Of a stretch of DNA of 64,000 nucleotides, positions 32,491-62,568 are shown piece after piece. Position 1 is the stretch's first letter. Each line of letters starts with the position of its first letter. Origin of the DNA: Paenarthrobacter sp. PH39-S1 (lineage in GTDB: Bacteria > Actinomycetota > Actinomycetes > Actinomycetales > Micrococcaceae); the NCBI RefSeq assembly GCF_030063245.1, contig NZ_JASISR010000001.1:98178-162177 (forward strand), read 5' to 3'. Below the pieces are notes generated by a model. The model saw nothing but the letters and a program-made list of their open reading frames with translations. It made no database searches and had not been told where the DNA came from. A program made the translations under genes and the position numbers.

Positions 32491-32514
32491 AAGAATCCAC
32501 CAAAGGGTTTGGGG

Positions 32515-43254: not shown

Positions 43255-45068
43255 GATTTCGTCCCGCCGAGGGTGGCAGCCGTTTCCGCCGGTGCCGATT
43301 CCGCCGATGCTGTTTCCGCCGATGCTGTTTCCGCCGGTGCGGGTCCGGGCCCGGGGTGGCGGTAGAAATCTGCGGCCTGGGCCGGCAGCGGAGTCTTCTC
43401 AAGGATCAGGTCGGCCGCCTTCTCGGCGAGCATCATGACGGGTGCATAGATATTGCCGTTGGTCACATATGGCATCGCGGACGCATCGACCACCCGCAGG
43501 CCACCGGTGCCGTGCACCCGCATGGTCAGCGGATCCACGACCGCCATCGGGTCGGATGCCGGTCCCATTTTGGCGGTGCAGGAGGGATGCAGGGCGGTCT
43601 CGGCGTCCCGCGCCACCCACTGAAGGATCTCGTCGTCGGTCTGCACCTTAGGTCCGGGGGAGAGCTCGCCGCCGTCAAACGCTCCCATTGCGGCCTGGCC
43701 CAGAATGTCCCGCGAAATGCGCACGGCCTCAACCCATTCGCGCCTGTCCTGGGCGGTGGAGAGGTAGTTGAACTTCAATGACGGGTGGCGGCACGGATCC
43801 GTGGATTGGATTTTCACGCTGCCGCGGGAATCGGAATACATCGGTCCGATGTGCACCTGGTAGCCGTGTTTGGCAGCGGCTTTCTGCCCGTCGTAGCGCA
43901 CCGCGACGGGTAGGAAGTGGAACATCAGGTTCGGGTACGCGACGTCCTCATTGGAGCGGACAAAACCGCCGCCCTCAAAGTGGTTGGTCGCGGCCGGTCC
44001 GGTTCGGCCCAGCAGCCACTGCAGACCAATGAACGGGTAGCGCCACAGGCTCAGACTCGGCTGCTGGGACACGGGCTGGGTGCAGGCATGCTGGATGTAG
44101 ACCTCTAAATGGTCCTGCAGGTTTTCGCCCACGCCGGGCAGGTCCGCCACGGACGCGATGCCCAGGCGCCGTAGGTGCGCAGCATCGCCCACGCCGGAAA
44201 GCTGCAGCAGCGCCGGCGTGTTGATGGCACCGCCGCACAGGATGATTTCCGCGCCGTGCACGGTGTGCCGCCGCCCGTTCCTGCGGTAGCTGACCGACGT
44301 GGCAACCGTGCCGGTGAAGTTGATTTTTGTGACGAAGGCGCGGGTGAGCACGCTGAGGTTGTCTCGGGTGCGGTTCGGGCGAAGATAGGCCCGCGATGCG
44401 GAGAGCCGCTGTCCTTTGTGCACATTGCGGTCAAAGGGGCCGAACCCTTCCTGCCGGTACCCATTAACATCATTGGTCCGGGGGTAGCCGGCCTGCCGGG
44501 CTGCTTGGAAGAAGGCTTGGAACAGCGGGTTCCGGGCCGGCCCGCGTTCGAGCACCAGTGGCCCGTCGTGTCCGCGCAGCTCGTCGTCCCCGGCCGCAGC
44601 CAGGGCGTTCTCCATCTTCTTGAAATAGGGCAGACAGTGCGCGTAATTCCAGCTTTCCATCCCGGGATCCGCAGCCCAGCGCTCGTAGTCCAAAGGATTG
44701 CCGCGCTGGAAGATCATGCCGTTAATCGAGCTTGACCCGCCCAGCACCTTCCCCCGCGCATGGGCGACCCTCCGGCCGGCCATGCGCGGTTCCGGGTCCG
44801 ATTGGTAGCGCCAGTCATAGAACCGGTTTCCGCTGGGGAAGGTAAGCGCCGCCGGCATTTGGATGAACAGGTCCCAGGGGTAGTCACTGCGGCCGGCCTC
44901 AAGGACCAGGACCGTACGGGTGCCATCGGCGCTGAGCCGGTCGGCCAGCACCGAACCGGCGCTGCCGCCGCCGACAATCACATAGTCATAGCTCACACCG
45001 TCATGCTTCACAGCTTCGTCCTTAACCACACCGTTGTCCTCAACACTGTCGTAGCTCTTGTCCGTCAT
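43251..45068 (-). CDS. betA: Choline dehydrogenase (GMC oxidoreductase, BetA type)
   Basis: 605 aa from ATG 45068 ([11 protein letters not shown]). FAD-binding [13 protein letters not shown] (33-45), GMC signatures [18 protein letters not shown] and [17 protein letters not shown], and the C-terminal active-site HPSCTAKMG and [20 protein letters not shown]. It oxidises choline to betaine aldehyde. The last about 35 residues after the GMC core are low complexity ([20 protein letters not shown]), encoded by 15-bp units GCCGATGCTGTTTCC around 43288-43342. The frame is open far upstream to 45935, but that part is antisense-like and overlaps the dimethylglycine oxidase gene. Confidence 0.9.
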
Positions 45069-45129
45069 GATGCGGGTCTCCTCGTACGGGATGGAAATAA
45101 TCGGGCCGGATGTGGTGAAGTGTGGAACC

Positions 45130-45185
45130 GGTTGCTCGGTTGCTCGGTTGCTCGGTTGCTCGGTTGCTCGGTTGCTCGGTTGCCG
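45130..45185. repeat. 8-bp tandem repeat in the leader of betA
   Basis: Six perfect copies of GGTTGCTC plus a partial seventh fill nearly the whole spacer between the stop of the dimethylglycine oxidase gene (45188) and betA (start 45068). The unit is not a multiple of three, and the array is 62-117 bp upstream of the betA start codon. Confidence 0.95.
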
Positions 45186-45187
45186 TG

Positions 45188-48764
<3,577 letters not shown>

Positions 48765-48839
48765 GATCAACTCCCAAAATACGTTCTCGACATACGTTCC
48801 GGACGGGCAAAGCGTTGCTGGCGGGCGGGGGCGGGGGCA

Positions 48840-49190
48840 TCAGCCGTGACCGTGGAGGCTCAATCCCGGCGGCAGGTTTGGCACCTCACCGGACTCTGCG
48901 ACCATGATGTTCCCGTCAATCACCGACACGGTATGAACACGGACAGGCAACTTGGCCGGAGGAGCGTCTGCGGTACCGGTACGCAGATTGAAGCGGGACG
49001 CGTGCAGCGGACACTCGACCTCGCAGCCTTCCACCCAGCCGTCGGCCAAGGAAGCATCCTGATGCGTGCACGTGTCATCGATGGCAAAAAGTTCTCCATC
49101 CTCCGTGTGGAAGACGGCAATGGGCGGGGTCGTCTCCAGCCGCACGGCATCGCCGGGGGCAAGAGCGCTGAGTGGACATGCTGCATGCAT
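48840..49190 (-). CDS. Rieske [2Fe-2S] ferredoxin of a three-component oxygenase
   Basis: 116 aa from ATG 49190. The Rieske cluster ligands are Cys41 and His43 (CTHQDASLADG) and Cys60 and His63 (CPLHASRFN); the spacing is typical of small NirD/BphA3-like ferredoxins. It would carry electrons from the reductase at 49493 to the oxygenase at 50826, both on the opposite strand. It is the first gene of the long minus-strand operon. Assignment to this oxygenase is by neighbourhood. Confidence 0.9.
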   Translation of the reverse strand: MHAACPLSALAPGDAVRLETTPPIAVFHTEDGELFAIDDTCTHQDASLADGWVEGCEVECPLHASRFNLRTGTADAPPAKLPVRVHTVSVIDGNIMVAESGEVPNLPPGLSLHGHG

Positions 49191-49309
49191 GGGCGAGCCT
49201 CTGTTTCCTATGGAATTCTTTGAGCTATCCGTGCAAACCGCACCCTGCAGGTCATCTCGCCAGGGTCGATCGTTTCGCACTCTGCAACTTAACTCGCATT
49301 ACGGAACAT

Positions 49310-49392
49310 CGTGATTCATCTCACACCGCTTGTCAAGGGGGTCGGGACATTCGGATGGACCCCTTGACAACGCATAGTCCAACGCCCATTCT
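49310..49392. promoter_or_regulatory. Divergent promoter with inverted -35 elements
   Basis: TTGTCAAGGGG (49330-49340) and CCCCTTGACAA (49360-49370) form a perfect 11-bp inverted repeat whose centres are 30 bp apart. Each arm contains a TTGACA: on the plus strand at 49364-49369 followed after 17 bp by CATTCT (49387-49392), on the minus strand at 49336-49331 facing the ferredoxin gene. CGTGATTCATCTCACA (49310-49325) matches TGTGA-N6-TCACA with one change and lies in the ferredoxin-side promoter. This 302-bp stretch holds no gene. Confidence 0.6.
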
Positions 49393-49492
49393 GTTTCACA
49401 TGACGATGTTGGTTGCGCAGGACGCAATATCGGACGTCTCCAAACATTTTTTTCCCTGAGCCACGTTTTTCTTCCCTAAGGAGGGACGGCAC

Positions 49493-50758
49493 ATGACCAC
49501 TATCGCTGTTGTGGGAGCCTCGCTGGCGGGCATCTCCGCTGCACGGGCCCTCAGCGCGCAGGGATACCGCGGCCGCCTCGTGATCATCGGGGACGAAGGC
49601 CGGCGGCCCTATGACCGGCCGCCGCTGTCCAAGAACTTTCTCGCCGGACGGATCACTGCCGCGGACCTGGCGCTGGAATCGGACGATGAGCAGCTGGAAG
49701 CCGAATGGCTGCTTGGTGTCGCGGCAACCGGGCTGGACACGCGGCGACGCGTAATCTCCTGCAGTGACGGCCGCACAGTCGCCTATGACTCGGCCATTAT
49801 TGCCACCGGCTCACGGGCACGGGTGCTGCCGGCTGCCGCGGGATTCGAGAACGTCCACACCCTGCGGACCCTTGAGGATGCGCAGCGTCTGAAGGAGCAG
49901 CTTGTCCCGGGCCGCCGCCTCGTGGTGGTCGGTGCCGGCTTCGTCGGAGCCGAGGTCGCTGCGACGGCCAGAGGCATCGGGATGGACGTCACCTTGATCG
50001 GGTCCGGGGCGTTCCCGCTCAGCGGTCCGCTCGGCATGCAAATGGGCGCCCTGATCGGCCGGCTGCACGAGGACAACGGTGTCAAACTGATCAGCAGCGC
50101 CCGGGTTGCGTCCTTTGTTTGTGAAGACGCGACGGCCGGGAACGGCAGGACGGCCAGCGCCGTCCGGCTGGCCGACGGACGCACGGTGCCGGCCGACGTC
50201 GTCGTGCTCGGCTTGGGCTCGGTGCCGAATACCGATTGGCTCACAGGTTCCGGGTTGGATCTAACTGACGGGATCCGGTGCGATGCGGCCGGCCGGACCG
50301 GTGTCCGCGGCGTCTTTGCCGTGGGCGACTGCGCCGCCTGGTTTGACGACCGATCGGGAGCTTACGAGCGGGACGAACATTGGACCGGAGCCATGGAGCG
50401 GGCCGGCCGCGCCGTGGCTGCACTGCTGGCGGATGCCGCCGCGGCTCATGATGCACCGACCGGTACTGGGCCTGGCGCGCTGGATCTGCCGTACTTCTGG
50501 TCCGACCAATACGGTGCGAGGCTCCAGTTCGCCGGCAGCGCGAGCGACGCCGACAGCGTGGAAATTGAAGCCGGTGACCCCGCCGAACATAGTTTCCTGG
50601 CTGTCTATTACCGTGCCGGGGAAGCGGTCGCCATTTTGGGCGTGAATCAGCCCCGACTATTCACCAGATGGCGTAAGGCCCTCACCGGTGCTACCCCGAA
50701 TAAACGCGTGCCGCCCGGTAGGGAAACCGGAGCGACGTCGCTGAGCCCGGTCTGCTAG
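49493..50758 (+). CDS. FAD-dependent ferredoxin reductase of a Rieske oxygenase system
   Basis: 421 aa, BphA4/rubredoxin-reductase-like. FAD motif TIAVVGASLAGISAARAL (N-terminus), RPPLSKNFLAG, NAD motif LVVVGAGFVGAEVAATARG (about 143-161), and GVFAVGDCAAW for the flavin ribityl site. The C-terminal domain has FWSDQYGARLQFAG. It oxidises NAD(P)H and reduces the Rieske ferredoxin. The oxygenase gene follows after 67 bp. The last about 25 residues are poorly conserved and end in Cys. Confidence 0.92.
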   Translation: MTTIAVVGASLAGISAARALSAQGYRGRLVIIGDEGRRPYDRPPLSKNFLAGRITAADLALESDDEQLEAEWLLGVAATGLDTRRRVISCSDGRTVAYDSAIIATGSRARVLPAAAGFENVHTLRTLEDAQRLKEQLVPGRRLVVVGAGFVGAEVAATARGIGMDVTLIGSGAFPLSGPLGMQMGALIGRLHEDNGVKLISSARVASFVCEDATAGNGRTASAVRLADGRTVPADVVVLGLGSVPNTDWLTGSGLDLTDGIRCDAAGRTGVRGVFAVGDCAAWFDDRSGAYERDEHWTGAMERAGRAVAALLADAAAAHDAPTGTGPGALDLPYFWSDQYGARLQFAGSASDADSVEIEAGDPAEHSFLAVYYRAGEAVAILGVNQPRLFTRWRKALTGATPNKRVPPGRETGATSLSPVC

Positions 50759-50759
50759 C

Positions 50760-50815
50760 CGTCCGCCACTGCTGTTGCCCTCCCGCCACCGCTTTTGTCC
50801 ACCACCGCTGTTGAG
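50760..50815 (+). repeat. Degenerate 17-19-bp repeat in the leader of the Rieske oxygenase gene
   Basis: Three imperfect units (GTCCGCCACTGCTGTTG, a middle CCCGCCACCGCTTTT version, GTCCACCACCGCTGTTG) fill the spacer between the reductase stop and the GAGGAG ribosome site. Confidence 0.6.
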
Positions 50816-50825
50816 GAGTAAAAGA

Positions 50826-51968
50826 ATGACCTCCGAAGTAATTTCTCCGTCCCTGATCCCCACACTGCCGGGACACACCTACGTGGACGAGGACATCTTC
50901 CGCGCGGAGCAGGAACAGATCTTTGAGAAGATGTGGTTTTGCGCCGTGCTGTCCGCTGACCTGGCCAAACCGGGATCCTACAAGACGGTGCAGGTCGGCC
51001 GCGAAAGCGTGCTCATCAACCGCACCCGCAAGGGCGAGGTGCGTGCATTTTTCAACATCTGCCGGCACCGCGGCGTGAAGCTGTGCATGGAGGAAGCAGG
51101 TGTTGCAGGCCGGTCCTTCCAATGCCCGTACCACGCCTGGACGTACGACTTCGAGGGCAAACTCATTGCCGCGCCGAACCTGACAAAGATGCCGGACATT
51201 GACCGCCAGGAGTACGGGCTGGCGAAGGTCGCGGTGCGGGAATTCATGGGCTATGTCTGGGTCTGCCTGGCGGACGAACCGCCGTCCTTCGAGCATGACG
51301 TCATGGGCGCCATCGAGGAACGCCTCGGTGATTTGAAAGCGATCGAGGGGTACGACATTGCCCATCTGAGCCTGGGCCGGCGAATCCGTTATGACGTAAA
51401 GGCCAACTGGAAGCTCATCATAGAGAACTTCATGGAGTGCTACCACTGTGCCACCATCCACCCCGAGCTGACCGAAGTCCTGCCCGAGTTTGCCGACGGA
51501 CTCGCGGCGCAGTACTTCGTGGGGCACGGCGCGGAGTTCGGTGAAGACATCAAGGGCTTTACCGTGGACGGTTCCGAAGGCCTGGAGCGGATTACCGGGA
51601 TCGACGACGACCAGGACCGCCGCTATTACGCCATCACGATCAAGCCTACGGTTTTTGTTAACCTGGTGCCGGATCATGTCATCATCCACCGAATGTTCCC
51701 GTTGGCTGCCGATCACACAATTGTCGAGTGTGACTGGCTGTACCTGCCCAGCGTGGTGGAAAGCGGCCAAGACCTCACCGCTTCCGTCGAGCTGTTCGAC
51801 CGCGTCAACCGGCAGGATTTTGACGCCTGCGAGCGCTGCCAGCCGTCCATGGGATCGCGCATCTATGCCAAGGGCGGTGTTCTGGTGCCGAGCGAACATC
51901 ACATCGCTGCTTTCCACGACTGGGTCACCAGCAGGATCAGCGGCGAGGATGTCCCATCTTCTCGCTGA
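50826..51968 (+). CDS. Rieske non-heme iron oxygenase, probable glycine betaine demethylase
   Basis: 380 aa from ATG 50826, preceded by GAGGAG. Rieske ligands are Cys79/His81 (CRHRG) and Cys100/His103 (CPYHAW). The mononuclear iron site lies in NWKLIIENFMECYHCATIHP (about 193-212). The protein resembles the alpha subunits of quaternary-amine demethylases (GbcA, stachydrine and carnitine groups). With dimethylglycine oxidase, choline oxidation genes and a betaine importer around it, glycine betaine N-demethylation to dimethylglycine plus formaldehyde is the best guess. Another quaternary amine is possible. Confidence 0.87.
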   Translation: MTSEVISPSLIPTLPGHTYVDEDIFRAEQEQIFEKMWFCAVLSADLAKPGSYKTVQVGRESVLINRTRKGEVRAFFNICRHRGVKLCMEEAGVAGRSFQCPYHAWTYDFEGKLIAAPNLTKMPDIDRQEYGLAKVAVREFMGYVWVCLADEPPSFEHDVMGAIEERLGDLKAIEGYDIAHLSLGRRIRYDVKANWKLIIENFMECYHCATIHPELTEVLPEFADGLAAQYFVGHGAEFGEDIKGFTVDGSEGLERITGIDDDQDRRYYAITIKPTVFVNLVPDHVIIHRMFPLAADHTIVECDWLYLPSVVESGQDLTASVELFDRVNRQDFDACERCQPSMGSRIYAKGGVLVPSEHHIAAFHDWVTSRISGEDVPSSR

Positions 51969-52758
51969 TCAACTGTCCGGTCTCCTTGAGCTCAGCAAGG
52001 AGACCGGGGGCTTTTTTGGGGTCAAACCGGAACGCAGGTCCGGAGATGCTCACGGCGGCGATGGCGATGCCGCGGTGGTCCCGCACCGGCACGGCGACGG
52101 CGTTCAGTCCGATCTCCAGCTCGGAATAAGAGGTCGCGTACCCGTCCGCAGCAGCCGCTATGAGCTGCTTTTCCAAGGCCGGACGGGACGTGACGGTACT
52201 GGCCGTCAGGGCAGGGAGCCCGGTTTCCTTCAGGATGCGTCCACGTTCGGCGGTGTCCAGGCAGGCCAGCAGCATCTTGCCGCTGGAGGTCGCGTGCACC
52301 GGCGTCAGGCTGCCCACCCAGTCGGACGTGGCCAGCGTCGACGGGCCCATGGCCTGATCGACATTGACGGCAAAATTCGAGCGCAGGACGGCCAGATTAA
52401 CGGTTTCCTGGAATTTTTCGGCCAGCGCGCGCAGGAAGGGGCGGGCCTCGGCGCCTACGTTCAGCCGCCCGGGGATGGAACTGGCCAGGCGCAGGATGCC
52501 GAAGCCCAGCTGGTATTTGCCGCGTTCGTGGTCCTGCTGGGCCATGTCCCGCGCGTCCAGGGCGCTCAGGAGACGGGAGGCCGTCGATTTGTGGACCCCC
52601 ATTTCTTCCGCGATTTCACTGACGCCGGCGCCGCCGGTGCGTGCCAGGATTTCCAGTACGGTGATGGCCCGGTCCACTGACTGCACCCCGCCCGGGGAGG
52701 AACCATCCAAATCGGTCACGGCTTCGGGTACTGCAGCGGGGGATCTGTCGACAACCAT
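51937..52758 (-). CDS. IclR-family regulator (betaine branch)
   Basis: 273 aa from ATG 52758 (MVVDRSPAAV). Winged helix GVSEIAEEMGVHKSTASRLL, effector domain with GKYQLGFGILRLAS, VHATSSGKMLLACLD, and AVAVPVRDHRGIAIAAVSISGP. It overlaps the 3' end of the convergent Rieske oxygenase gene by 32 bp and contains that gene's intrinsic terminator in its coding sequence. It probably regulates the divergent Rieske/choline promoters at 49.3 kb; this is inference from position. Confidence 0.9.
   Translation of the reverse strand: MVVDRSPAAVPEAVTDLDGSSPGGVQSVDRAITVLEILARTGGAGVSEIAEEMGVHKSTASRLLSALDARDMAQQDHERGKYQLGFGILRLASSIPGRLNVGAEARPFLRALAEKFQETVNLAVLRSNFAVNVDQAMGPSTLATSDWVGSLTPVHATSSGKMLLACLDTAERGRILKETGLPALTASTVTSRPALEKQLIAAAADGYATSYSELEIGLNAVAVPVRDHRGIAIAAVSISGPAFRFDPKKAPGLLAELKETGQLISEKMGHPRR
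51977..52017 (+). terminator. Intrinsic terminator of the reductase-oxygenase operon, inside the iclR gene
   Basis: CCGGTCTCCTTG (51977-51988), loop of seven, CAAGGAGACCGG (51996-52007), then a C/G step and six T (52012-52017). The arms are perfectly complementary. It is a textbook rho-independent terminator for plus-strand transcription, yet it lies within codons of the opposite gene. Confidence 0.85.
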
Positions 52759-52845
52759 AGGATCATGCTCCCAGACTTGGCGCCGGGATGACACGCGTCG
52801 GTCAGCTGGAGCCTCGCATCCGCGGCGCTGATTTCCCTGGCCCAG

Positions 52846-52880
52846 CACCGGAAGACGCCCTGCGGGAGCGTCTTCCGGTG
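52846..52880. terminator. Hairpin after the MHS transporter gene
   Basis: CACCGGAAGACGC (52846-52858) and GCGTCTTCCGGTG (52868-52880) are perfect 13-bp arms with a 9-base loop, 33 bp beyond the transporter stop on the minus strand. No T-run. Confidence 0.7.
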
Positions 52881-52912: not shown

Positions 52913-54256
52913 TCAGCGCGCCTTGTTGGATTCCCGACGCAGTTCAGTCGGCTGCTCCTGCAGTGTCCGCTTAGACGTTTCGGGAATCAGGAACGTGGCG
53001 ATCAAAGCGCCGGCAGCGATGATGGTCAGATATACCGCCGGGGCGAGCCTGTTGCCGGTGGTAGCGATCAGGAACGTCGCAACAAACGGAGCCGTGCCCC
53101 CGAAGACGGCGTAGCTGACGTTGTAGGTGATCGCCGAGGCAGTATAGCGAACAGCGGTGGGGAAGACTTCCGAGAGCAGGACCGCGGTGACAACGTTGGC
53201 GGTGACAGCTCCCACGGCGAGGAGGATCTGGCCAAGCAGGGCGTTGCCCACCCCGCCCTGGCTGGCCAGCAGATAGGCGGGGATGGCCAGTCCGCCCAAC
53301 AGCACCGAGGACACCGTCATCATGGTTTTGCGGCCCACCCGGTCACAGACCCGGCCCAGCACCGGGGACAGGACGGCCGCGAAGGCCAGTGCCGCGACAT
53401 TGGTCATCAGCACCTGGTCTGCCGGCAGTTTCACCACTTCGCGCAGGAAGGTGGTCATGTAGGTGGAGAAGGTATAGAAGGACAGCGCGGTGAGGCTGAT
53501 GTAGCCGCCCAGAATCAGCATGGGACGCCACTGCTGGCGCAGGGTCTGTCCCAACGAGGCGTGGATGGCGTCGGTATCGTTGGCGATTTCCTGGAACATC
53601 GGGCTTTCCTGGAGTCGACGCCTGATGTAGAAGGCCACGAGTCCCATCGGGGCGGCCACGAGGAAGGGGATCCGCCAGCCCCAGCCATTCATGGCATTGG
53701 TGCTGAGATTGGCCGTGAGCAGGTAGCACAGCAGGGCCGCGACGGCGAAGGAGCCAAACGTTGCGGCGGGCATCCAGCTGCTGAATCGGGAGCGCTGGTT
53801 GGCCGGGGCATGCTCGATCACATAGGTGACGGCACCGGCGTATTCGCCGCCGGCGGAGAGACCCTGCAGGCTGCGTGCCAGCGTCAGCAACACGGCAGAC
53901 CAGATGCCGATCGTTGCGTAGCTGGGCAGCAGTCCGATCACCATCGTGGCCCCGGACATAAGCAGCACCGTCAGGGCCAGGACGTGTTTGCGCCCGATCC
54001 GGTCGCCAAGCATGCCGAAGAATGCCCCTCCGACCGGGCGCAGGGCAAAGGCGACGGCGAAGACCGCGAATGTCTGCAGCAGGCCGACAATGTGGTCCCC
54101 AGACGGGAAGAAAACCTTGGCGATGATGGGTGCCAGAAAACCGTAGATGGCGAAATCAAACCATTCGACGACGGTACCGGCGGCTGCCGCAATAGTTACC
54201 TTGCGCAGGGTCGCCGGGCTGGACGGAGCTGGCGACGTGGGATGTTGAGATTGCAT
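52913..54256 (-). CDS. MHS-family (MFS) transporter
   Basis: 447 aa from ATG 54256 (MQSQHPTSPAP). Twelve predicted helices; MHS marks are AAAAGTVVEWFDFAIYGFLA (TM1), GMLGDRIGRKHVLAL and QGLSAGGEYAGAVTYVIEHAP. It is downstream of the N-carbamoylsarcosine amidase gene (172 bp, with a strong hairpin between), so it may carry creatinine, a hydantoin, betaine or a carboxylate. It ends with a basic tail after the last helix. Confidence 0.87.
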   Translation of the reverse strand: MQSQHPTSPAPSSPATLRKVTIAAAAGTVVEWFDFAIYGFLAPIIAKVFFPSGDHIVGLLQTFAVFAVAFALRPVGGAFFGMLGDRIGRKHVLALTVLLMSGATMVIGLLPSYATIGIWSAVLLTLARSLQGLSAGGEYAGAVTYVIEHAPANQRSRFSSWMPAATFGSFAVAALLCYLLTANLSTNAMNGWGWRIPFLVAAPMGLVAFYIRRRLQESPMFQEIANDTDAIHASLGQTLRQQWRPMLILGGYISLTALSFYTFSTYMTTFLREVVKLPADQVLMTNVAALAFAAVLSPVLGRVCDRVGRKTMMTVSSVLLGGLAIPAYLLASQGGVGNALLGQILLAVGAVTANVVTAVLLSEVFPTAVRYTASAITYNVSYAVFGGTAPFVATFLIATTGNRLAPAVYLTIIAAGALIATFLIPETSKRTLQEQPTELRRESNKAR

Positions 54257-54368
54257 GGTTTTCTCCCATGGTGGAATGCCTGTTCCGGCGGTGGCATTCG
54301 ATGCCACCGGGTGCCCGGGCAATGCGCTGCCCGTATACGGTTGGGCGGGGTTTAGCCGGTAATCGGAT

Positions 54369-54401
54369 GCGGCCGCCGGAACTGGTGGTTCCGGCGGCCG
54401 C
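54369..54401. terminator. GC-rich hairpin after the N-carbamoylsarcosine amidase gene
   Basis: GCGGCCGCCGGAAC (54369-54382) and GTTCCGGCGGCCGC (54388-54401) form a perfect 14-bp stem with a 5-base loop, 27 bp downstream of the gene's stop. No T-run follows. Confidence 0.75.
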
Positions 54402-54427
54402 AGGGTGAGAGGTGCCGCTGCCTGGCG

Positions 54428-55138
54428 CTACGGGGTGGTGGTCTCGTCGAACTTCGGCAGGTTGTTCAGGTATGCAATGACATTGGAGAGCGGCTCGACG
54501 TCGCCGAACTTGGAGTCGATGTCGAACAGGTTCCAGGCCACGGTACCGGCGACGCGGTCGCCGACGGCTTCGCGGACGACGATCGGGCGGAACCCCTCGG
54601 CGATGGCATCCTCGACGGTGTGGCGAACACACCCGGCGGCGGTGACGCCGGTGACGATGATGGTGTCGATCCGGTTGGCGGTCAGGAATTGCTGCAGGTT
54701 GGTGCCGGGGAAGGCGCTGGCACGCTTCTTGGTGATGACCAGCTCGCCCGGTTCCGGGGCGATGCGGCTGTCAATCTTGACTGCCTCAGATCCTTCTTCC
54801 AGCAGCTCCAGCGGAATCTTGTTGACCCACAGGCCCATGTCGGAGGGCTTGGAGCGGTCCACGATGTCATAGGCGGTGGTGGTGTAGATGACCGGAATGC
54901 CCTTGGCGCGGGCGGCGTCGTTGAGGTCCTGGCAGGCCGGGATGATGGTGTCCATGTTCTCGCAGCTGAACGCATGGCCCTCGCGGGTCCAGGCGTTGGC
55001 CATGTCGATGTGCACGATGGCGGGACGATTACCGTACCCGACGCGACGCTTGAAGCCAAGCTCATGGTACTGCTCGGTGCCTGCGGCGAAGGCCTTCGCG
55101 AGCAGTTCGTTCAGCTGGGCGTTAAGGTCCTGGCTCAT
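54428..55138 (-). CDS. N-carbamoylsarcosine amidase
   Basis: 236 aa isochorismatase-fold cysteine hydrolase that splits N-carbamoylsarcosine into sarcosine, CO2 and ammonia. The nucleophile is Cys170 (TGVTAAGCVRHT), the aspartate Asp45 (VHIDMANAW) and the lysine 137 or 138 (ITKKRASAF); this spacing fits the triad of the Arthrobacter enzyme of known structure. Other blocks (GFKRRVGYGNRPA, TREGHAFSCENMD) also agree. It has its own promoter with the twin operator at 55203-55259. It is the last step of creatinine use through N-methylhydantoin. Confidence 0.94.
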   Translation of the reverse strand: MSQDLNAQLNELLAKAFAAGTEQYHELGFKRRVGYGNRPAIVHIDMANAWTREGHAFSCENMDTIIPACQDLNDAARAKGIPVIYTTTAYDIVDRSKPSDMGLWVNKIPLELLEEGSEAVKIDSRIAPEPGELVITKKRASAFPGTNLQQFLTANRIDTIIVTGVTAAGCVRHTVEDAIAEGFRPIVVREAVGDRVAGTVAWNLFDIDSKFGDVEPLSNVIAYLNNLPKFDETTTP

Positions 55139-55202
55139 GGGGTGACTCCTTTGAATCGGATTTGTGTGACGGGGGACTAACCTGCAAAAGCAGAAGCTGA
55201 GA

Positions 55203-55259
55203 GTGATTTACATCTCTTGACTGTTGCTGTACTACAAATATAGTTGCTAAGCCAGCAAC
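55203..55259 (-). promoter_or_regulatory. Promoter-operator module X (N-carbamoylsarcosine amidase)
   Basis: Read on the minus strand: -35-like TTGTCT, then the palindrome GTTGCTGGCTTAGCAAC (55259-55243) as an exact 17-bp spacer, then -10-like TATATT, then a third half-site AGCAAC (55228-55223). GTTGCT boxes start at 55223 and 55243 on the plus strand, 20 bp apart. GTGA-N6-TCTC (55203-55216) is a weak Crp-like half-match. The same layout is found at 60925-60961. Confidence 0.75.
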
Positions 55260-55363
55260 AGACAAGAGGTTTGCGGTTAAATGTTTTTGGGCCCGAGCTG
55301 CGGAAGGCTGCGGCCCGCATATCGCGGACCGCAGCCATCGTGGTCGGGTTGGCGTCGGTGGAT

Positions 55364-56746
55364 CTAGTCGCTGCGCACCTGGCGCGGATCCACGTTGCGG
55401 GCCCCCAGCAGCAGTATGCCGGCGGCCAGAATGGGCAGGCACCCCCAGTAGAAGGCAGCCGCCGTCCACGACAGTCCGTTGGTCAGGGACACAGTAATGA
55501 GCAGACCGGCAAAGATGGCGCCGACCTGCCCGGCGGCGTTGATGATGGAGCCTCCGGTGGCGCGGGTATGCACCGGAAAGCTCTCGCCGTTGAAGAACAG
55601 CAGGGCCGAGAACGGGCCGATCAGGAAGAAAAGACCCGCGCTGTAGAGCGTGATGATCAACGCGAAACCCCCGTTGGGCGCCAGCAGCATCGCGCTGAAG
55701 GACACGGACGAGAGAATCCAGCCGATGGAAATGGCGTTGCGCCTACCCAGCCGGTCGCCCAGCCAGCCGTGGAAGAGATACCCGGCGAAGGCGGTTGCGT
55801 TGGAGATGATTAAAATCCCCAAGGCACTATCGAACGCTAGGTTCTTGCCGCTGGCCGCGGTCAGCACCGACGTTCCGAGGATCGCGAACGCCAGCACGCC
55901 AAACCAGCTAAGCATGAAGGCGAAGCCGATCACCAGTGTTGACCGCAGCGACTCACCTTTGAAGGCCGAGGCCAGCGGGCTGGCCTTGTCTGAAAGGTCC
56001 ACGCCGACACTGTGGGCGAGCGCCAGTGCCTCCTCGGTCCGTCCTGCGGCCAACAATTTCTCTGCGCCAGCGCGGGCGGTGAACTGCGGGCTCTCCTTCA
56101 GCCACCTGCCGGCAATCACGATAAAGATGGCGGGCACCGCCGCGACAATGAAGCATAGCGCCCACCCGCCGATCGGAAACAGGACATAAATCGAGCCGGC
56201 CGCCAGCACGGAGCCAACAGGCCAGCCGGACTGCACGAGCGAGTAGATAAAGCCGCGCCGGCGCGCCTTGGCCGGATCGGAATACACATGAGCGAACATT
56301 TCGCTCAGATAGGCCGCATTGATGGCCTGCTCCGCGTAGCCCAAGCCGGCCACGGAACGGACCACAATGAGCAGCACAAGGCCGACGCCGGCCACCAGTC
56401 CGATGACCAGTCCCGCGACCGCCGTCAGAATGGACGCGACCGCGGCTCCGACCACTGCAATGAGGATGCCCTTTCGCCGACCGATCTTGTCCACGAGCGG
56501 ACCGACGGCGAACGCCACGAGGGCAGTGCCGGCCGTCACCCAGGTGTTGATTTCCGTGGACTGGGAGGCAGCCCAGCCCAAATCGTGGGCAAGTTTGGGC
56601 AAGAGGTTGCCGAAGAGGACGAAGTCATAGACGGCGAAAGTCCAGGCAAAGAAGCAGATCCAGGTTGCGATGCGCACATCCCTGGTGGTGACGGGGGTTG
56701 GAGCGGATACTACCGAGTTGACGGTGGTTCCGATGGGTGTTTCCAT
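55364..56746 (-). CDS. MFS transporter, sugar/acid-porter type
   Basis: 460 aa, twelve predicted helices. Marks are WICFFAWTFAVYDFVLFGNL (TM1), GPLVDKIGRRKG (loop 2-3) and HGWLGDRLGRRNA (loop 8-9). It is downstream of the hydantoinase gene (137 bp) but a strong terminator lies between, so it may depend on read-through or on a small promoter of its own. The neighbourhood suggests uptake of creatinine, N-methylhydantoin or related cyclic amides. Confidence 0.85.
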   Translation of the reverse strand: METPIGTTVNSVVSAPTPVTTRDVRIATWICFFAWTFAVYDFVLFGNLLPKLAHDLGWAASQSTEINTWVTAGTALVAFAVGPLVDKIGRRKGILIAVVGAAVASILTAVAGLVIGLVAGVGLVLLIVVRSVAGLGYAEQAINAAYLSEMFAHVYSDPAKARRRGFIYSLVQSGWPVGSVLAAGSIYVLFPIGGWALCFIVAAVPAIFIVIAGRWLKESPQFTARAGAEKLLAAGRTEEALALAHSVGVDLSDKASPLASAFKGESLRSTLVIGFAFMLSWFGVLAFAILGTSVLTAASGKNLAFDSALGILIISNATAFAGYLFHGWLGDRLGRRNAISIGWILSSVSFSAMLLAPNGGFALIITLYSAGLFFLIGPFSALLFFNGESFPVHTRATGGSIINAAGQVGAIFAGLLITVSLTNGLSWTAAAFYWGCLPILAAGILLLGARNVDPRQVRSD

Positions 56747-56766
56747 TGACTTTCCTTATCTACTGG

Positions 56767-56801
56767 GGTCAGGTCCGAGGCGTGCGAAGCGGAACCTGAC
56801 C
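56767..56801. other. Short inverted repeat upstream of the MFS gene
   Basis: GGTCAGGT (56767-56774) and ACCTGACC (56794-56801) are complementary, 20 bp before the MFS start. It could be an operator or a leader hairpin. Confidence 0.4.
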
Positions 56802-56810
56802 GGTGGAGGG

Positions 56811-56863
56811 TAAAACGAAGGCGGCCGCGGGCCGGATGCTGCTGCATCCGCCCCACGGCCGCC
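56811..56863 (-). terminator. Intrinsic terminator after the hydantoinase gene
   Basis: On the minus strand the stem GGCGGCCG/CGGCCGCC with inner arms CGGATGC/GCATCCG (56863 down to 56820) is followed by CTTCGTTTTA, a short T-rich tail. It lies 21 bp beyond the stop. Confidence 0.8.
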
Positions 56864-56883
56864 GGGTTTCCGACCGATCCCGC

Positions 56884-59800
56884 TTAGACGATGACCGCTG
56901 CAGCGGTACGCAGCTCTGCCGTACGCAGCTCTGCGGTGCGCCGATCGTCAACCGTCATGGTCGTGACGTTGATGGCGACACCGTAGTCCCTTTCCGCGAG
57001 TTCCACTGTGGTGAACTCGTCCAGAACATCGGAGAGCACCTTCTGCGGATCGCGTCTGAGCGGATCGCCGTACCCGCCGGAGCTGGGGACGGTGATCTGC
57101 AGCGAGTCCCCGGCCTTGAGGTGGCGGGCCGTGACCTTGGACGGCCAGTTTTCCTCGCCGTCGCGGTTGACGTTCTTCACCAGTGAACCGTTGAGTCCCG
57201 GGTAACCGCCGAAGATGCCCCACGGTTCATCGGATTCGTGGCGCTCGCCCTCGCAAGTGACCACGGTGTCCGTCAGGAAGGTGTTTTCCCGCACGATTCC
57301 TATCCCGCCGCGGAATTCTCCCGGCGCGGCGGCCTCGCTGCGCAGCTCGTAGCGGTCGGTGCGCATCGGGAACCGCCATTCCAGTTCCTCGATCGGGTTG
57401 TTGCGCGTATTGGCGATCAGGTTGTCCACCGAGTCGAGCCCGTCGCTGTCCGGTCGTCCACCGTAGGAGCCCTCGTTGACCTCCAGGTAAACCCAGTACT
57501 CCTTGGCTGCTTCGCTCCAGCCCGAGTAGGAAAGGAAGTGGATGTGGGCGGAGTTACCCGCGGTGATCTTCTCCGGCAGGACCGGTGAAAGCGCCCGCAG
57601 CGCAAGATCCACGACGCGCTGGACCTGCGCGAAACGGGCAATGCAGGCTGCCGGATAGTTCGGGTTGAAGATCGTCCCCTTGGGCGCGATCACCTTGATG
57701 GGCTTGAGCATCCCCTCGTTCTGCGGAACGAAGACCGAGTGCGACACCTCATCCAGGAAAATCATCCGGGTGATGAACGCAAAGGCGGAAACCGTGGTGC
57801 CTTCGAACGGACAGTTATAGCCCGTCTCCACCTGCGGGCTCGAACCCGTCAGATCATAGGTGATCTGATCGCCCTCGATGATGACCTTGACCTGGATCGG
57901 CAGCTTCTTGCCGTAGTTCTTGCCGTCATCGTCCAGGTAGCCGACCTCGGTCTCGTAGACTCCGTCCGGCACCTTGGCGATCTCGGCCCGCAGCATCGCC
58001 TCGGAGTAGTTGATCCACTGCTCACCGGCCTGCTTGACCGCTTCCTTCCCATACCGGTTGGTGACATCCAGGAATCGGCTGGTGGCCAGCTCACAGGCGG
58101 CGATCATGGCTTCCAGATCACCGGCATTGTGGGTTGGCGTACGGGTGTTCGCAAGAATGTGCTTGAGCAGCGCTTCCTGACGGACGCCCTTTTCGGCGAT
58201 TTTGACGGCCCGGAAAATCTGCCCCTCGGCCTTGTTGTCCACCAGGTCCACGGCCAGGCCCGGGTAGGCACCGCCGATGTCCAGCAGCTGGCCGGAGGCC
58301 CCGGCAAAACCAATCCGTTCGCCCTCAAAGAAGATCGGCATCACGATCGCCACATCGGGGGAGTGCGTGGCCCCCAGATATGGATCATTGTGCAGGATGA
58401 TGTCACCTTCGTGGATGTCATCGCCCAGCACGCTCATCACGCCGCGGACAATTTTGGGCATCGCACCCATAAACATCGGTGTCGAGTCGGACTCGGCCAG
58501 CACATGGCCGTCGGCATCGAAGATGCCCGCACCAAGGTCCTCCGACTCGCGGATGATGGAGGAATAGGACATCCGGAACAGCACCGAAGCCATCTCCTTG
58601 GCCATCGAATTAAAGGCACCCCCGATGACGCGCATCAGAATCGGCGTGGCCAGTTCGCTGCCGGCGCCCTCCTGGTCTTTCTTCGGGCAGGCGATGACAA
58701 TGTTGCCGTGGTTGTCGATGGTGGCGCTGAACGCCGGCGGCACCACGACCGTGGAGTCATATTGCTCGATCACACACGGGCCATCCAGGCGCTGGCCCGC
58801 GCCGAGCAGTTCCCGGTCGTAGAACGGCGTAGAAAAGAATCCGGGCTTCCCGGCGGCGTCAAAGACGACATCCTGGGTGTCCAGCAGCGCCCGGTCGAGC
58901 CCGCCGGAGGCCCGGCCCAGGATCGGGGCGGGCAGCTCGTCCATGATCCCGATGCCCTCAACACGGATGTTGACGATTTCCACCCGGCCGGTGGCGAAAC
59001 GGTGTCCGTATTCGGTCTCGTGCGCCTGATGGAAGCGCTCCACCAGCTCCTCGAGCCAGGCCTCTGTGATGTCCCCCTCGGGGACTTCGAAGCGGACCTC
59101 GTAACCCTGGCCCTCATAGCGGCCGTCCGCCAGCCGGCGCAGCACCCGGCGGTCCGCCGGGGTCCCATCGGCGGTCAATTGCGTGACGGCGTCGAGGGAC
59201 AGAGAAGCGTACCGGGATTCAAGTCCTGCCCTATCCACATCCGGCAGGGTGTACCGGGCGGTGGCAACGTATTCGTACTTCTGATCCGTGGCGACCAGGC
59301 CCGTGGCGGCGATAATGCCGGGATGCGCGGGGATCAGGACGGTGGGAATGTCCAGCTCGGCCGCGATTTCACAGGCGAACAGGGCTCCGGCCCCGCCACC
59401 GCCGACCAGGGTGAAGTCCCGGGGGTCGTAGCCCCGGCGGACGGAGTTGAGCTCAATGGCCTGGCTCATGCCGAATTTCTGGATCTGCAGGGCGCCCAGC
59501 GCCGCTTCCTCCACGGTCATGCCCAGCTGGCCCGCCACCGTGGACATCGCGGTCCGGGCCAGATCCACGTTCATCTGCATTTCGCCACCGGCAAGGTTGC
59601 GCTTGGCGCGCAGCCGGCCCAACACCACCTGCGCGTCGGTTGACGTGGGCTTCGTACCGCCATGGCCGTAGCAGGCCGGACCAGGCCGGGCGCCCGCGGA
59701 AGCGGGGCCGACCCGGAAGATGCCGCCGTCGTCGACGAAGGCAATCGAACCGCCGCCGGCGCCGATGGTGTCGATATCCACCATGGGGACCATCGCCTGA

Positions 59801-60756
59801 TAATCACCGACCTTGGTGTCCAACAGATGACGCATCCGAAGTTCGCCGCCGGGTGCAACGCCGATGTCCGCCGAGGTGCCGCCGATATCCAGCGTCACGA
59901 CATTGTCGAAGCCGGCCTGCTTGCCCGCCCAGATACCTCCAATAAGGCCGCCCACGGGACCGGACATCAGCAGGTTGACCGGACGCTCACCGGCAACGTC
60001 GATTGGGGTCATACCGCCGGAGGACTGCATCAGCAGTACGTCACGGGTGTAGCCCAGCTCCTTGACCTGGGCGGAAAGCCTGGCCAGGTAGCGGGAGACC
60101 TTCGGCCCCACGTAGGCGTTCAGCGCCGTGGTGGAGAACCGTTCAAATTCACGGTAAAGCGGGACAACCTCGCTGGAGATGGAGAGGAACGCCTCGGGAA
60201 ATTCGTTCTGAATGATTTGTTTGATCCGCTGTTCATGCATCGGGTTCAGGTAAGAGTGCAGCAGACACACCGCGATCGACTCGACGCCGGCATCGCGCAG
60301 CTCGCGCACCCGGACGCGCACCTCGTCCTCGTCCAAGGGGACCAGGATCCCGCCATCTGGAACCGTGATCCGCTCCTTCACGGTGAGACGGTGGCGACGC
60401 TTCACCAGCGGAGAGCTCTGCCAGGGCAGTTCCTGCTGCAGGGAAAAGTTGAAGGGTTTCTTGTGCCGGGCGATGTGCAGGATGTCACGGAAACCCTCCG
60501 TGGTAATCATGCCCACCTCCGCGCCGGTGTGCGTCAGGGCAATATTCGTCGCCACCGTTGTGCCGTGGACCAACTCGTCCACCTGGGACAGTTCGATGCC
60601 GGCCTTGGCTGTCAGCAGGGTCAGGCCATGCAGGACGGCCCGCGACGGGTCGTCCGGCGTTGACGGGACCTTTTCAATGACCACCCGGCCTGTTTCGTCA
60701 TCCGACAGATAGAAATCCGTGAATGTACCGCCAACGTCTACTCCGATGCGCTTCAT
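56884..60756 (-). CDS. N-methylhydantoinase / hydantoinase, HyuA-HyuB fusion (ATP-dependent)
   Basis: 1290 aa from ATG 60756 (MKRIGVDVGG). HyuA-like half (1 to about 690): ATPase DVGGTFTDFYLS, VDELVHGTTVATNIALTHTG, LDIGGTSADIGV, VDIDTIGAGGGSIAFVD. HyuB-like half (about 700-1270): LFRMSYSSIIRESEDLGAG, ILHNDPYLGATHSPDV, YSEAMLRAEIAKVPDG. The fused order and length equal 5-oxoprolinase, a real alternative. With N-carbamoylsarcosine amidase under the same promoter type, ATP-dependent opening of N-methylhydantoin is favoured. The C-terminus is extended by repeat-encoded RTAELRTAELRTA (15-bp units GTACGCAGCTCTGCC at 56906-56935). Confidence 0.88.
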   Translation of the reverse strand: MKRIGVDVGGTFTDFYLSDDETGRVVIEKVPSTPDDPSRAVLHGLTLLTAKAGIELSQVDELVHGTTVATNIALTHTGAEVGMITTEGFRDILHIARHKKPFNFSLQQELPWQSSPLVKRRHRLTVKERITVPDGGILVPLDEDEVRVRVRELRDAGVESIAVCLLHSYLNPMHEQRIKQIIQNEFPEAFLSISSEVVPLYREFERFSTTALNAYVGPKVSRYLARLSAQVKELGYTRDVLLMQSSGGMTPIDVAGERPVNLLMSGPVGGLIGGIWAGKQAGFDNVVTLDIGGTSADIGVAPGGELRMRHLLDTKVGDYQAMVPMVDIDTIGAGGGSIAFVDDGGIFRVGPASAGARPGPACYGHGGTKPTSTDAQVVLGRLRAKRNLAGGEMQMNVDLARTAMSTVAGQLGMTVEEAALGALQIQKFGMSQAIELNSVRRGYDPRDFTLVGGGGAGALFACEIAAELDIPTVLIPAHPGIIAATGLVATDQKYEYVATARYTLPDVDRAGLESRYASLSLDAVTQLTADGTPADRRVLRRLADGRYEGQGYEVRFEVPEGDITEAWLEELVERFHQAHETEYGHRFATGRVEIVNIRVEGIGIMDELPAPILGRASGGLDRALLDTQDVVFDAAGKPGFFSTPFYDRELLGAGQRLDGPCVIEQYDSTVVVPPAFSATIDNHGNIVIACPKKDQEGAGSELATPILMRVIGGAFNSMAKEMASVLFRMSYSSIIRESEDLGAGIFDADGHVLAESDSTPMFMGAMPKIVRGVMSVLGDDIHEGDIILHNDPYLGATHSPDVAIVMPIFFEGERIGFAGASGQLLDIGGAYPGLAVDLVDNKAEGQIFRAVKIAEKGVRQEALLKHILANTRTPTHNAGDLEAMIAACELATSRFLDVTNRYGKEAVKQAGEQWINYSEAMLRAEIAKVPDGVYETEVGYLDDDGKNYGKKLPIQVKVIIEGDQITYDLTGSSPQVETGYNCPFEGTTVSAFAFITRMIFLDEVSHSVFVPQNEGMLKPIKVIAPKGTIFNPNYPAACIARFAQVQRVVDLALRALSPVLPEKITAGNSAHIHFLSYSGWSEAAKEYWVYLEVNEGSYGGRPDSDGLDSVDNLIANTRNNPIEELEWRFPMRTDRYELRSEAAAPGEFRGGIGIVRENTFLTDTVVTCEGERHESDEPWGIFGGYPGLNGSLVKNVNRDGEENWPSKVTARHLKAGDSLQITVPSSGGYGDPLRRDPQKVLSDVLDEFTTVELAERDYGVAINVTTMTVDDRRTAELRTAELRTAAAVIV

Positions 60757-60904
60757 ATTGTTTCCTTTCAGGTTCTGAATGAGAACTGTCTGCTGTGGAA
60801 CGGTCTGCTCCGGAACTGGCTGGAGTTGCTCTCTGGGGGGTGCTGTCATCGGGAGGATCACGCGTGTCACTTGTGCAGTGGCGGTGGGACCCGGCGACCA
60901 AAAA

Positions 60905-60961
60905 GTGATGTAATTCACAGTGCGTTGCTGTAAGTTCAATATAGTTGCTATCTAAGCAACG
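60905..60961 (-). promoter_or_regulatory. Promoter-operator module Y (hydantoinase) and Crp/GlxR-like site
   Basis: GTTGCT boxes start at 60925 and 60945 and AGCAAC is at 60956-60961. Read on the minus strand, GTTGCTTAGATAGCAAC (60961-60945) is followed by -10-like TATATT and the third half-site AGCAAC (60930-60925). AGTGATGTAATTCACA (60905-60920) fits TGTGA-N6-TCACA with one change and lies between the promoter and the gene. The divergent iclR gene starts at 61073. Confidence 0.75.
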
Positions 60962-61072
60962 CCACAAGGGGTATCCGAAGATATTTTCCGGCCGTCCCGT
61001 TCTATGATGGGGAATCACGGTGATTTCGCCGCGGACCGGCCGCCGGGTGCGGGTGTACGTGAGGATGGAACG

Positions 61073-61867
61073 ATGGCAGGAAGGCCACGGCAGAGCGATG
61101 AGCTGCCTCAAGGGGCTGCCGCTTCTCTGCTTAACGGGCTGGGCGTGCTCGAGGCGTTTTCCATCGAGAAGCCGGTGCTCGGGGTAACGGAAATAGCGCA
61201 GAAAGTGAACCTGCACAAAAGTACCGTCTCCCGAATCCTGACGGGACTGGCCACTGCAGGGTATGTGGAGCGCGATGAGGAAACGGGGCGATTTCGTCTG
61301 GGGCTGGGATTGATCGGGCTCTCCGGACCGCTGCTGGCCGAACTCGATGTCCGTCGGGCCGCGCACGCCGAGCTTGAAAGGCTGACCGAACTGACCGGGG
61401 AAACGAGTGCGCTGGCCGTCTGGAACGGCACCGAGGCCGTGGTGGTGGAACAGATTCCCAGCCCGCACCAGGTCAAGCACACCGCGCCCATCGGAACACG
61501 ATACAACCTGTATGAAAGTTCCTCGGTGCGGACTTTCCTGGCAGAACTGCCGTTTGCGACCGCGCAGGGGATGCTGGATCAGGGGCTGATTACCCATTCG
61601 CTGGAATCCGGGCTCGGTAGCGACTACCTGCAGCATCTGACAGAGGTGAAAAAGCAGGGCTACGCCGTCAATGACGGGTATACCACCTTCGAAGAAGTCG
61701 GCATTTCGGCGGTGGTCCGCGACTATCGGGGCGTCGTGGTGGGCTGCATCACGACCTCGGCACCACGATCCCGAACGGGACAGGAGCGGATTTCCCTGCT
61801 GGCGGGCCTTGTCCTGGCTGCCGCCCGGACCGTCTCCACCCGTCTGGGCGGCAGGCTGGCGGGCTGA
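61073..61867 (+). CDS. IclR-family regulator (creatinine branch)
   Basis: 264 aa from ATG 61073 (MAGRPRQSDE), chosen over an ATG at 61004 because GGATGG precedes it. Winged helix GVTEIAQKVNLHKSTVSRIL; effector domain with FRLGLGLIGLSGPLLAELD, GETSALAVWNGTEAVVVEQI, VKHTAPIGTRYNLYESSS and ISAVVRDYRGVVVGCITTSA. Divergent from the hydantoinase gene, with module Y in between, it is the prime candidate to bind modules X and Y. It is a paralogue of the IclR at 28807. Confidence 0.92.
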   Translation: MAGRPRQSDELPQGAAASLLNGLGVLEAFSIEKPVLGVTEIAQKVNLHKSTVSRILTGLATAGYVERDEETGRFRLGLGLIGLSGPLLAELDVRRAAHAELERLTELTGETSALAVWNGTEAVVVEQIPSPHQVKHTAPIGTRYNLYESSSVRTFLAELPFATAQGMLDQGLITHSLESGLGSDYLQHLTEVKKQGYAVNDGYTTFEEVGISAVVRDYRGVVVGCITTSAPRSRTGQERISLLAGLVLAAARTVSTRLGGRLAG

Positions 61868-61896: not shown

Positions 61897-62568
61897 TTAC
61901 AGCACGCTGCGGATGGTCTTTTCAAAACTGGCCACGTGCTCCAGTGCCAGTTCGGCGGCCAAGGTGGCGTCGCCGTCGGCTATCGCTTCCAGCAGCCGGA
62001 CGTGTTCGGTGATGTGGCCGCTGACCGAGGGCACCTTATCCAGCACCAGGCACCAGATGCGGGTGGCCAGATTGTCGTATCTGATCAGGGCGTCCTCCAA
62101 ATGCGGGTTGGCGGCTGCCTTGTAGATCAGCCGGTGCACGGTGAGGTCGTAACGCATCAGCTCACGCTGATCCGGCGGTTGGGTGTGCAAGGTGCCGATG
62201 GTAGCTGCCACGGCGCGCAGTTCGGCACGCAGCGCCGGGGTGGCGCGCAGTGCGGCGCGGCGGGCTGCGAGGGGCTCGAGCAGCTGCCGGATCTCCGAGA
62301 CGTCAGCGAGTTCGGTGATATCCACGACGGTGGCAAACGTGCCGCGACGAGGGTACGAGACCACCAGGTGGTCGATTTCCAGTTTTTTCAGCGCCTCGCG
62401 GACCGGCGTGCGCCCCACCCTCAGTTCGCCGGCCAGCTGCGCGTCATTGAGCGGCTCGCCCGGCCTGATCTCCAGCATGATGAGTTTGTCCCGGATCCTC
62501 CGATAAGCGGATTCCGCCAAGGAGAGTTCTTCGGCTTCGGCCGGCGGCATTTCCGGTAAGGCGTTCAC
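61897..62568 (-). CDS. GntR-family regulator, FCD (FadR-type) subgroup
   Basis: 223 aa, GTG start at 62568 with AGGAG seven bases upstream. The winged helix is AYRRIRDKLIMLEIRPGEPL then LAGELRVGRTPVREALKKLE. The C-terminal all-helical FCD domain has the metal/ligand histidines in YDLTVHRLIYKAAANPHLE and SGHITEHVRLLEAIADGD. It is divergent from glyA, and a perfect palindrome lies between, so it probably controls glyA and perhaps itself. Confidence 0.9.
   Translation of the reverse strand: MNALPEMPPAEAEELSLAESAYRRIRDKLIMLEIRPGEPLNDAQLAGELRVGRTPVREALKKLEIDHLVVSYPRRGTFATVVDITELADVSEIRQLLEPLAARRAALRATPALRAELRAVAATIGTLHTQPPDQRELMRYDLTVHRLIYKAAANPHLEDALIRYDNLATRIWCLVLDKVPSVSGHITEHVRLLEAIADGDATLAAELALEHVASFEKTIRSVL

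Follow-up and report, generated by a model that had tools for sequence, protein, structure and literature searches.

A candidate IclR repressor and its tandem-palindrome operators at the N-methylhydantoin genes of Paenarthrobacter sp. PH39-S1

According to the main text of the survey by Suvorova and Gelfand (2021, PMC8222616), tandem palindromes lying 18-22 nt apart occur in 94 orthologous groups of IclR-family regulators and three-box sites in 32, and a palindrome accompanied by an external half-site is described there for PcaU, PobR and HmgR. Genes of the N-methylhydantoin pathway have been placed under a single regulator in Corynebacterium glutamicum ATCC 14067, where cshA and hyuB are controlled by AmtR; unlike the regulator proposed below, AmtR is a TetR-family nitrogen regulator, and the main text of that report does not mention IclR (PMC8864220). 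Here we describe a 64,000-nucleotide stretch of the Paenarthrobacter sp. PH39-S1 genome (contig NZ_JASISR010000001.1, positions 98,178 to 162,177 of the forward strand; hereafter the window) in which two matching promoter modules, X and Y, precede the genes for N-carbamoylsarcosine amidohydrolase (the amidase) and N-methylhydantoinase, respectively, and in which an IclR-family gene at 61073 diverges from the latter. In this pathway the hydantoinase converts N-methylhydantoin to N-carbamoylsarcosine, which the amidase then converts to sarcosine. With a probability of roughly 0.88, we read X and Y as the operators of a repressor, the 61073 IclR protein, that would control both enzyme genes and be released by an inducer. 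The two genes would then very probably be switched on together by a repressor of the ordinary kind.

Both modules were found where a sequence-only reading of this DNA had placed them, and they share one architecture. Read along transcription, each is GTTGCT-N5-AGCAAC-N14-AGCAAC, that is, a palindrome with an external direct half-site, the arrangement of PcaU- and PobR-type operators. The sequence-only reading had taken the box after the -10 for a lone extra half-site. It is instead the right arm of a second GTTGCT-N5-AGCAAC, the left arm of which overlaps the -10 hexamer and is degenerate there (3/6 bases in X and Y, 3-5/6 across the 54 type A modules described below). The operator is accordingly two 17-bp palindromes 20 bp apart, the second one partly decayed. 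Operator X spans 55223-55259 of the minus strand (37 bp, 21/24 consensus bases) upstream of the amidase gene, and operator Y, likewise with 21/24, spans 60924-60960 of the same strand upstream of the N-methylhydantoinase gene. In both, palindrome 1 lies between the -35 and -10 boxes and the third half-site begins within the -10 box, as had been described for the palindrome in the spacer and for TATATT as the -10. The likely -35 box of X, TTGTCT (55260-55265, minus strand), abuts palindrome 1 and leaves a 17-bp spacer; its likely -10 box, TATATT (55237-55242, minus strand), shares its last three bases with the degenerate third half-site, which starts there. In Y the -35 TTG stands one base farther off, so that the inferred -35 box, TTGTGG (60962-60967, minus strand), leaves an 18-bp spacer, and the likely -10 box, again TATATT (60938-60943, minus strand), overlaps the third half-site. 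An Rfam gathering search of 54300-61500 for an RNA element returned 0 matches.

The pattern GTTGCT-N14-GTTGCT-N5-AGCAAC occurs exactly at two places in the window, those of X and Y, and was absent from 100 dinucleotide shuffles. Across the strain's own genome (4,649,047 bases, 4.65 Mb, in 135 contigs) these 18 fixed bases are again matched exactly at X and Y only. Five further places carry 3/18 mismatches each, two of them being X and Y on the opposite strand and three lying elsewhere, which does not exceed the 4 given by a reversed control pattern. Of the single palindrome GTTGCT-N5-AGCAAC this genome holds 2 perfect copies and 5 more that differ at one base; with that mismatch allowed there is no enrichment (7 places vs 27 for the reversed control). 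Searches with three-half-site, single-palindrome and type B patterns gave no further convincing place in this assembly, which is 99.4% complete. The full module is therefore not scattered among unrelated places. The single palindrome by itself is less telling: among 295 genomes of the family it is exact in 70, comprising 24/33 with the amidase and 46/262 without it, and it was rejected as a family marker because it is not diagnostic.

To compare leaders, we used the family set of 295 genomes, in which relatives of the amidase at E 1e-50 or better occur in 33 genomes at 39 places. The 38 fetched amidase regions, the window and four named records (L042, L050, L059, L067) form 43 stretches of 688 kb. 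Leaders of up to 400 bp were scored for the 37-bp tandem motif GTTGCT-N5-AGCAAC-N3-GTTGCT-N5-AGCAAC, in which 24 bases are fixed, and 19/24 or better counted as a site; genes with a short alignment, an alignment starting after residue 30 or a cut leader were excluded. By this measure the motif precedes 40 of 41 amidase genes (38/39 in family genomes, 2/2 in the named records) and 29/33 N-methylhydantoinase genes, with one more at 18. It also precedes 23/47 genes for the 61073-type IclR and its relatives, 9/29 MFS7 genes and 2/30 MFS6 genes, and it was found before 0/8 GntR genes and 0/1 genes for the 51937 IclR, two regulators considered below. Taken whole, the loci hold 96 places at 19/24 or better; for 91 of them a pathway or regulator gene follows within 420 bp, a specificity that holds within loci selected for pathway genes, the genome-wide check being that of the strain's own genome. 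Among the remaining five places, one is followed after 412 bp by an MFS7 gene (L163) and another by a further amidase gene just past the end of L042. When the loci were letter-shuffled five times over (3.4 Mb in all), no such place arose.

The conservation in relatives that had been predicted for the boxes extends beyond the family. A search of 396 genomes belonging to the order gave three amidase genes from outside the family; all three carry the motif (21 and 19, 19, and 18 of 24) and adjoin IclR relatives of 60, 48 and 61% identity. In a public genome collection, 29 stretches match the 18-base pattern exactly. Seven of these are actinobacterial, and all seven matches precede amidase (5) or hydantoinase (2) genes, three of them (L051, L055, L063) being contigs already in the family set (G075, G124, G052). 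The retrieved stretches of the other 22, which are non-actinobacterial, contained no pathway enzyme gene, and several share near-identical flanks; assuming equal base frequencies, about 7-8 matches to 18 fixed bases are expected by chance in 257 Gb. In one of these 22, from Comamonadaceae (L064, 6619-6655), the three boxes match exactly and an IclR gene of 29% identity starts about 15 bp further on. A Puniceicoccaceae contig (L045, 2190-2226) has a perfect 24/24 tandem GTTGCT motif just after an open reading frame of 446 amino acids, with no pathway gene within the 8 kb examined.

In the surroundings of 83 sites that have a palindrome of at least 11/12, the match to a second one is highest at exactly -20 (mean 6.5/12) and +20 (5.4/12), with the next best offset at 4.2 and an average of 2.9 over the other offsets. 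Sorted by the letters of the -10 box, the 84 distinct modules comprise 54 of type A, 20 of type B and 10 others. In type A, which includes X and Y, a TTG box is followed by palindrome 1 as the spacer, by a TANNTT -10 box that ends in the start of half-site 3, and by half-site 4 at about the start point. In 45/54 of these modules, including X, the TTG is exactly 6 bp ahead of the operator; in 3 it is at 7 bp. Half-site 3, often ATTGNT in place of GTTGCT, reaches at most 5/6, and half-site 4 is 6/6 in 47/54. Half-site 2 is decayed too (4/6 or less) in 21/54, mostly at hydantoinase promoters, so decay cannot be put down to collision with the -10 box alone. In type B, found 20/20 times before amidase genes of 62-65% identity, half-site 1 is the decayed one and overlaps a TANAGT-like -10 box, half-sites 2-4 are nearly intact, and the operator extends from the -10 box downstream.

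From the sites, their conservation, their placement over promoter-like boxes and their co-occurrence with the 61073-type IclR we infer the following scheme. Two IclR dimers, acting as a tetramer, would occupy palindromes whose centres are 20 bp apart and which therefore face the same side of the helix. As long as no inducer is present, the bound IclR would mask each of the two promoters from the -35/-10 spacer through the -10 box to the start point, keeping the amidase and N-methylhydantoinase genes silent, each probably together with its downstream transporter gene. Release of IclR, and with it the joint opening of both operons, would be brought about by a compound of the pathway, N-methylhydantoin or N-carbamoylsarcosine being the likeliest. 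TtgV is a different regulator with a different function. This IclR-family protein, cited in PMC8222616, is alike in being a tetramer on neighbouring operator sites, an arrangement that is here only expected. The tandem IclR sites described in the main text of the same survey resemble X and Y in their 17-18-bp palindromes, outer GTT/AAC and 20-nt spacing, and are taken there as tetramer sites. Like them, the present system combines HTH_IclR and IclR_C domains, a 20-nt palindrome spacing and sites conserved upstream of orthologous targets. Compared by eye with the group 1 consensus of that survey, GKTYCRYW3-4RYGRAMC, the half-sites of X and Y fit at 8/12 positions: the outer GTT, C5, G13 and AAC agree and four inner positions differ.

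An alternative is that the same 61073 IclR is an activator, like PcaU or PobR, which we consider unlikely. The resemblance to PcaU, PobR and HmgR operators lies in the palindrome with an external direct half-site (PMC8222616), and at some genes a second site lies farther upstream. Unlike in those systems as described in that text, the external half-site of X and Y belongs to a decayed second palindrome, the sites overlap the core promoter and the pathway is another one. Type A operators, those of X and Y included, overlie spacer, -10 box and start point alike, and in 45/54 of them TTG keeps one fixed offset; type B operators run downstream from the -10 box. Protein bound at such places would obstruct polymerase. 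An operator over the core promoter fits repression, and repression is deduced from position only.

The regulator that travels with the boxes is the 61073-type IclR. The gene (61073-61867, plus strand) encodes 264 amino acids with the Pfam domains HTH_IclR (4e-14) and IclR_C (2.3e-24), which upholds the description of a divergent IclR gene beside module Y. Its score against the curated pcaR_pcaU family is 105 bits, below the cut-off of 284.75. A 61073-type IclR (51% identity or more) is present in the fetched regions of 35/37 operator-bearing genomes or records, and in G058, one of the two exceptions, an IclR at about the identity cut-off falls within the operator-linked clade; the second exception is Helcobacillus, taken up below. 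At E 1e-60 or better, IclR matches occur in 33/33 amidase-bearing family genomes and, taken as an unsorted group, in 82 others. In a protein tree the operator-linked IclR proteins group together, bar one degenerate fragment. Plasmid spread of the 61073-type IclR was rejected, a search of PLSDB at E 1e-50 having given a single match, of 49.6%. Six loci (L153, L155, L157, L158, L161, L163) have a pair of adjoining operator-linked IclR copies (66-68% and 62-64%) next to their pathway genes.

Two other regulators encoded nearby were weighed as binders of the boxes and rejected on co-occurrence. The product of the GntR/FCD gene (61897-62568, minus strand; assigned by domain search) is a very improbable candidate: the gene adjoins the IclR gene here and in several relatives, and yet a GntR protein of 60% identity or more is found in the fetched regions of merely 8/37 operator-bearing genomes or records. 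Still less can be said for the second IclR-family protein (51937-52848, minus strand; Pfam), which is of the right family and encoded near the amidase operon; it is 30% identical to the 61073 protein, the fetched regions of the 37 operator-bearing genomes or records show its type in the strain's own genome only, and outside the window no fetched operator region has a gene closer to it than to the 61073 protein.

Nor is it at all probable that the modules are alike merely through recently shared DNA, that is, duplicated or transferred leaders: X and Y do share GTTGCTGTA and AATATAGTTGCT outside the boxes, and type B modules, which are fewer and closer sequences, are less diverged (1.78 bits per base in half-sites, 0.75 in N5 spacers, 1.12 upstream, 0.67 downstream), whereas in the 54 type A modules the half-sites hold 1.49 bits per base against 0.12 in the N5 spacers, 0.45 in the 20 bp upstream and 0.16 in the 30 bp downstream, and identity among the proteins involved has mostly fallen to 60-80%.

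Several observations weigh against repression of both enzyme genes by the 61073 IclR. The promoter boxes are matches to consensus only; the sorting of modules into types A and B by their -10 letters makes the -10 counts circular, and 10/84 modules fit neither type. Some genes have two sites (e.g. in L059, L156, L159, L160 and L166), so that not all sites cover the promoter used. Three of the 33 hydantoinase genes reach just 11-15/24. In Helcobacillus (L050, 5854-5890) an exact module stands before a hydantoinase gene, and the best IclR relative in the genome has 41% identity. The protein tree supports the operator-linked IclR clade weakly (0.21), compared with 0.918 for its sister clade, and a sister IclR encoded in the same window, which has the same helix core (see below), may cross-bind. 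The strain's own genome also has a second N-carbamoylsarcosine amidase (65%; contig C78, 1975-2634) without any operator, which is the single amidase gene without a site among the 41.

A second control may be superimposed on that by IclR. The consensus for CRP and GlxR is TGTGA-N6-TCACA. We sought the best site of this kind in the 50 bp after each operator and counted those of 8/10 or better. Such sites are present in 42/54 type A modules, always starting 0-6 bp past the operator, and in 0/20 type B modules; shuffled leaders give them at 0.9% and 1.1%. The CRP/GlxR-like site of Y, TGTGAATTACATCACT (60904-60919, minus strand), matches at 9/10 and begins 4 bp past the operator, just downstream of the presumed start point; the weak site of X (55202-55217, minus strand) has 7/10 and falls under the threshold. 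The genome has 79 CRP/GlxR-like places with up to one mismatch, compared with 28 for the reversed pattern, and encodes a 225-amino-acid protein scoring 248-272 bits against CRP/FNR-family structures, some of which we take to be GlxR of C. glutamicum and CRP of M. tuberculosis. Module Y thus pairs a site with a CRP/GlxR-type protein in the genome. The site would probably add control by carbon supply, and its location just downstream of the presumed start point suggests that the effect would be repression.

The window also encodes a sister IclR (28807-29610), 48% identical to the 61073 protein. About 3 kb from it, before an MFS transporter gene, GTTGCAATCATTGCAACgtcGTTGCA at 32514-32539 is a candidate three-box operator of the form GTTGCA-N5-TGCAAC-N3-GTTGCA. 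Of 20 fetched sister-IclR loci, 16 contain the tandem motif in its GTTGCA form at 18/24 or better, and one shuffled copy had 0 such places; in its GTTGCT form the motif scores 18 in two of the 20 loci and does not attain 19 in any. Conversely, the pathway loci hold 96 places of the GTTGCT version at 19/24 or better vs 7 of the GTTGCA version. In 48 operator-linked and 26 sister proteins, recognition-helix residues 48-50 and 53-54 are invariant, giving the core HKS-SR, mostly HKSTVSR; residue 51 is T, or S in 7 sisters, and residue 52 is nearly always V. Residue 27, in contrast, is Glu in 47/48 operator-linked proteins and Arg in 26/26 sisters. Since the same helix core goes with GTTGCT in one group and GTTGCA in the other, the choice of half-site may be set outside the recognition helix, for example by residue 27. 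We tentatively propose, at somewhat less than even odds, that three controls are overlaid in one promoter and that the sister IclR clades have diverged to GTTGCT and GTTGCA with specificity set outside the helix. Palindrome 1 would fill the -35/-10 spacer, the third half-site would double as the -10 box, trading promoter strength against repressor affinity, and the CRP/GlxR-like site would abut the start point as a second block.

Tandem IclR sites are known already. What appears to be new is the IclR/operator pair for N-methylhydantoin genes, which has good comparative support; the CRP/GlxR-like site abutting the operator and the sister IclR with GTTGCA boxes are new details. Hydantoin, creatinine and Arthrobacter are absent from the main text of PMC8222616, and the regulon may be in its supplementary tables. 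In the collection of papers searched, none combined N-carbamoylsarcosine amidohydrolase with IclR, or creatinine with the IclR family and hydantoinase. Judged by title, none of the matches listed for N-methylhydantoinase concerned its regulation, and searches for creatinine or sarcosine regulators, or for GlxR/CRP, in Arthrobacter gave nothing on the subject. The N-methylhydantoin pathway, whose amidase is present in 33/295 family genomes, would thereby gain a defined candidate regulator and operator. The operator modules offer a testable promoter part, and the two sister clades, with the same helix core and one half-site base changed, amount to a natural experiment on how IclR proteins choose their sites.

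The genes around the modules fit a pathway for N-methylhydantoin. The amidase gene (54428-55138, minus strand; 236 amino acids) matches PDB 1nba at 331.6 bits and the Pfam family Isochorismatase, and is followed, probably in the same operon, by a gene for an MFS transporter of the metabolite/H+ symporter family (52913-54256, minus strand; start codon uncertain). The N-methylhydantoinase gene (56884-60756, minus strand) encodes 1290 amino acids with fused HyuA and HyuB parts, assigned by Pfam and by a match of 2133.5 bits to the N-methylhydantoinase of PDB 7hk5, and an MFS transporter gene (55364-56746, minus strand) lies downstream, again probably in the same operon. Enzymes of this pathway serve in creatinine assays. 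The abstract of a report on a Clostridium (PMC4417704) names the intermediates of the pathway too. The label of a creatinine/N-methylhydantoin regulon, given by the sequence-only reading, holds for N-methylhydantoin, whose enzyme genes carry the boxes, and lacks support for creatinine, since boxes turned up at no other gene. No creatinine-converting gene under the same operator was found, the creatininase family not being among those searched. The best cytosine-deaminase-like match, on contig C43, provides no such link: it scored 181.9 bits, far under the cut-off of 438, and its contig is without motif matches. Elsewhere in the window, 38514-51968 holds a choline/glycine betaine/sarcosine gene cluster with a choline ABC transporter, betaine aldehyde and choline dehydrogenases, a GcvT-domain protein, PurU and glycine betaine monooxygenase-like genes, several members scoring under curated cut-offs. 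Sarcosine released by the amidase could feed into this cluster.

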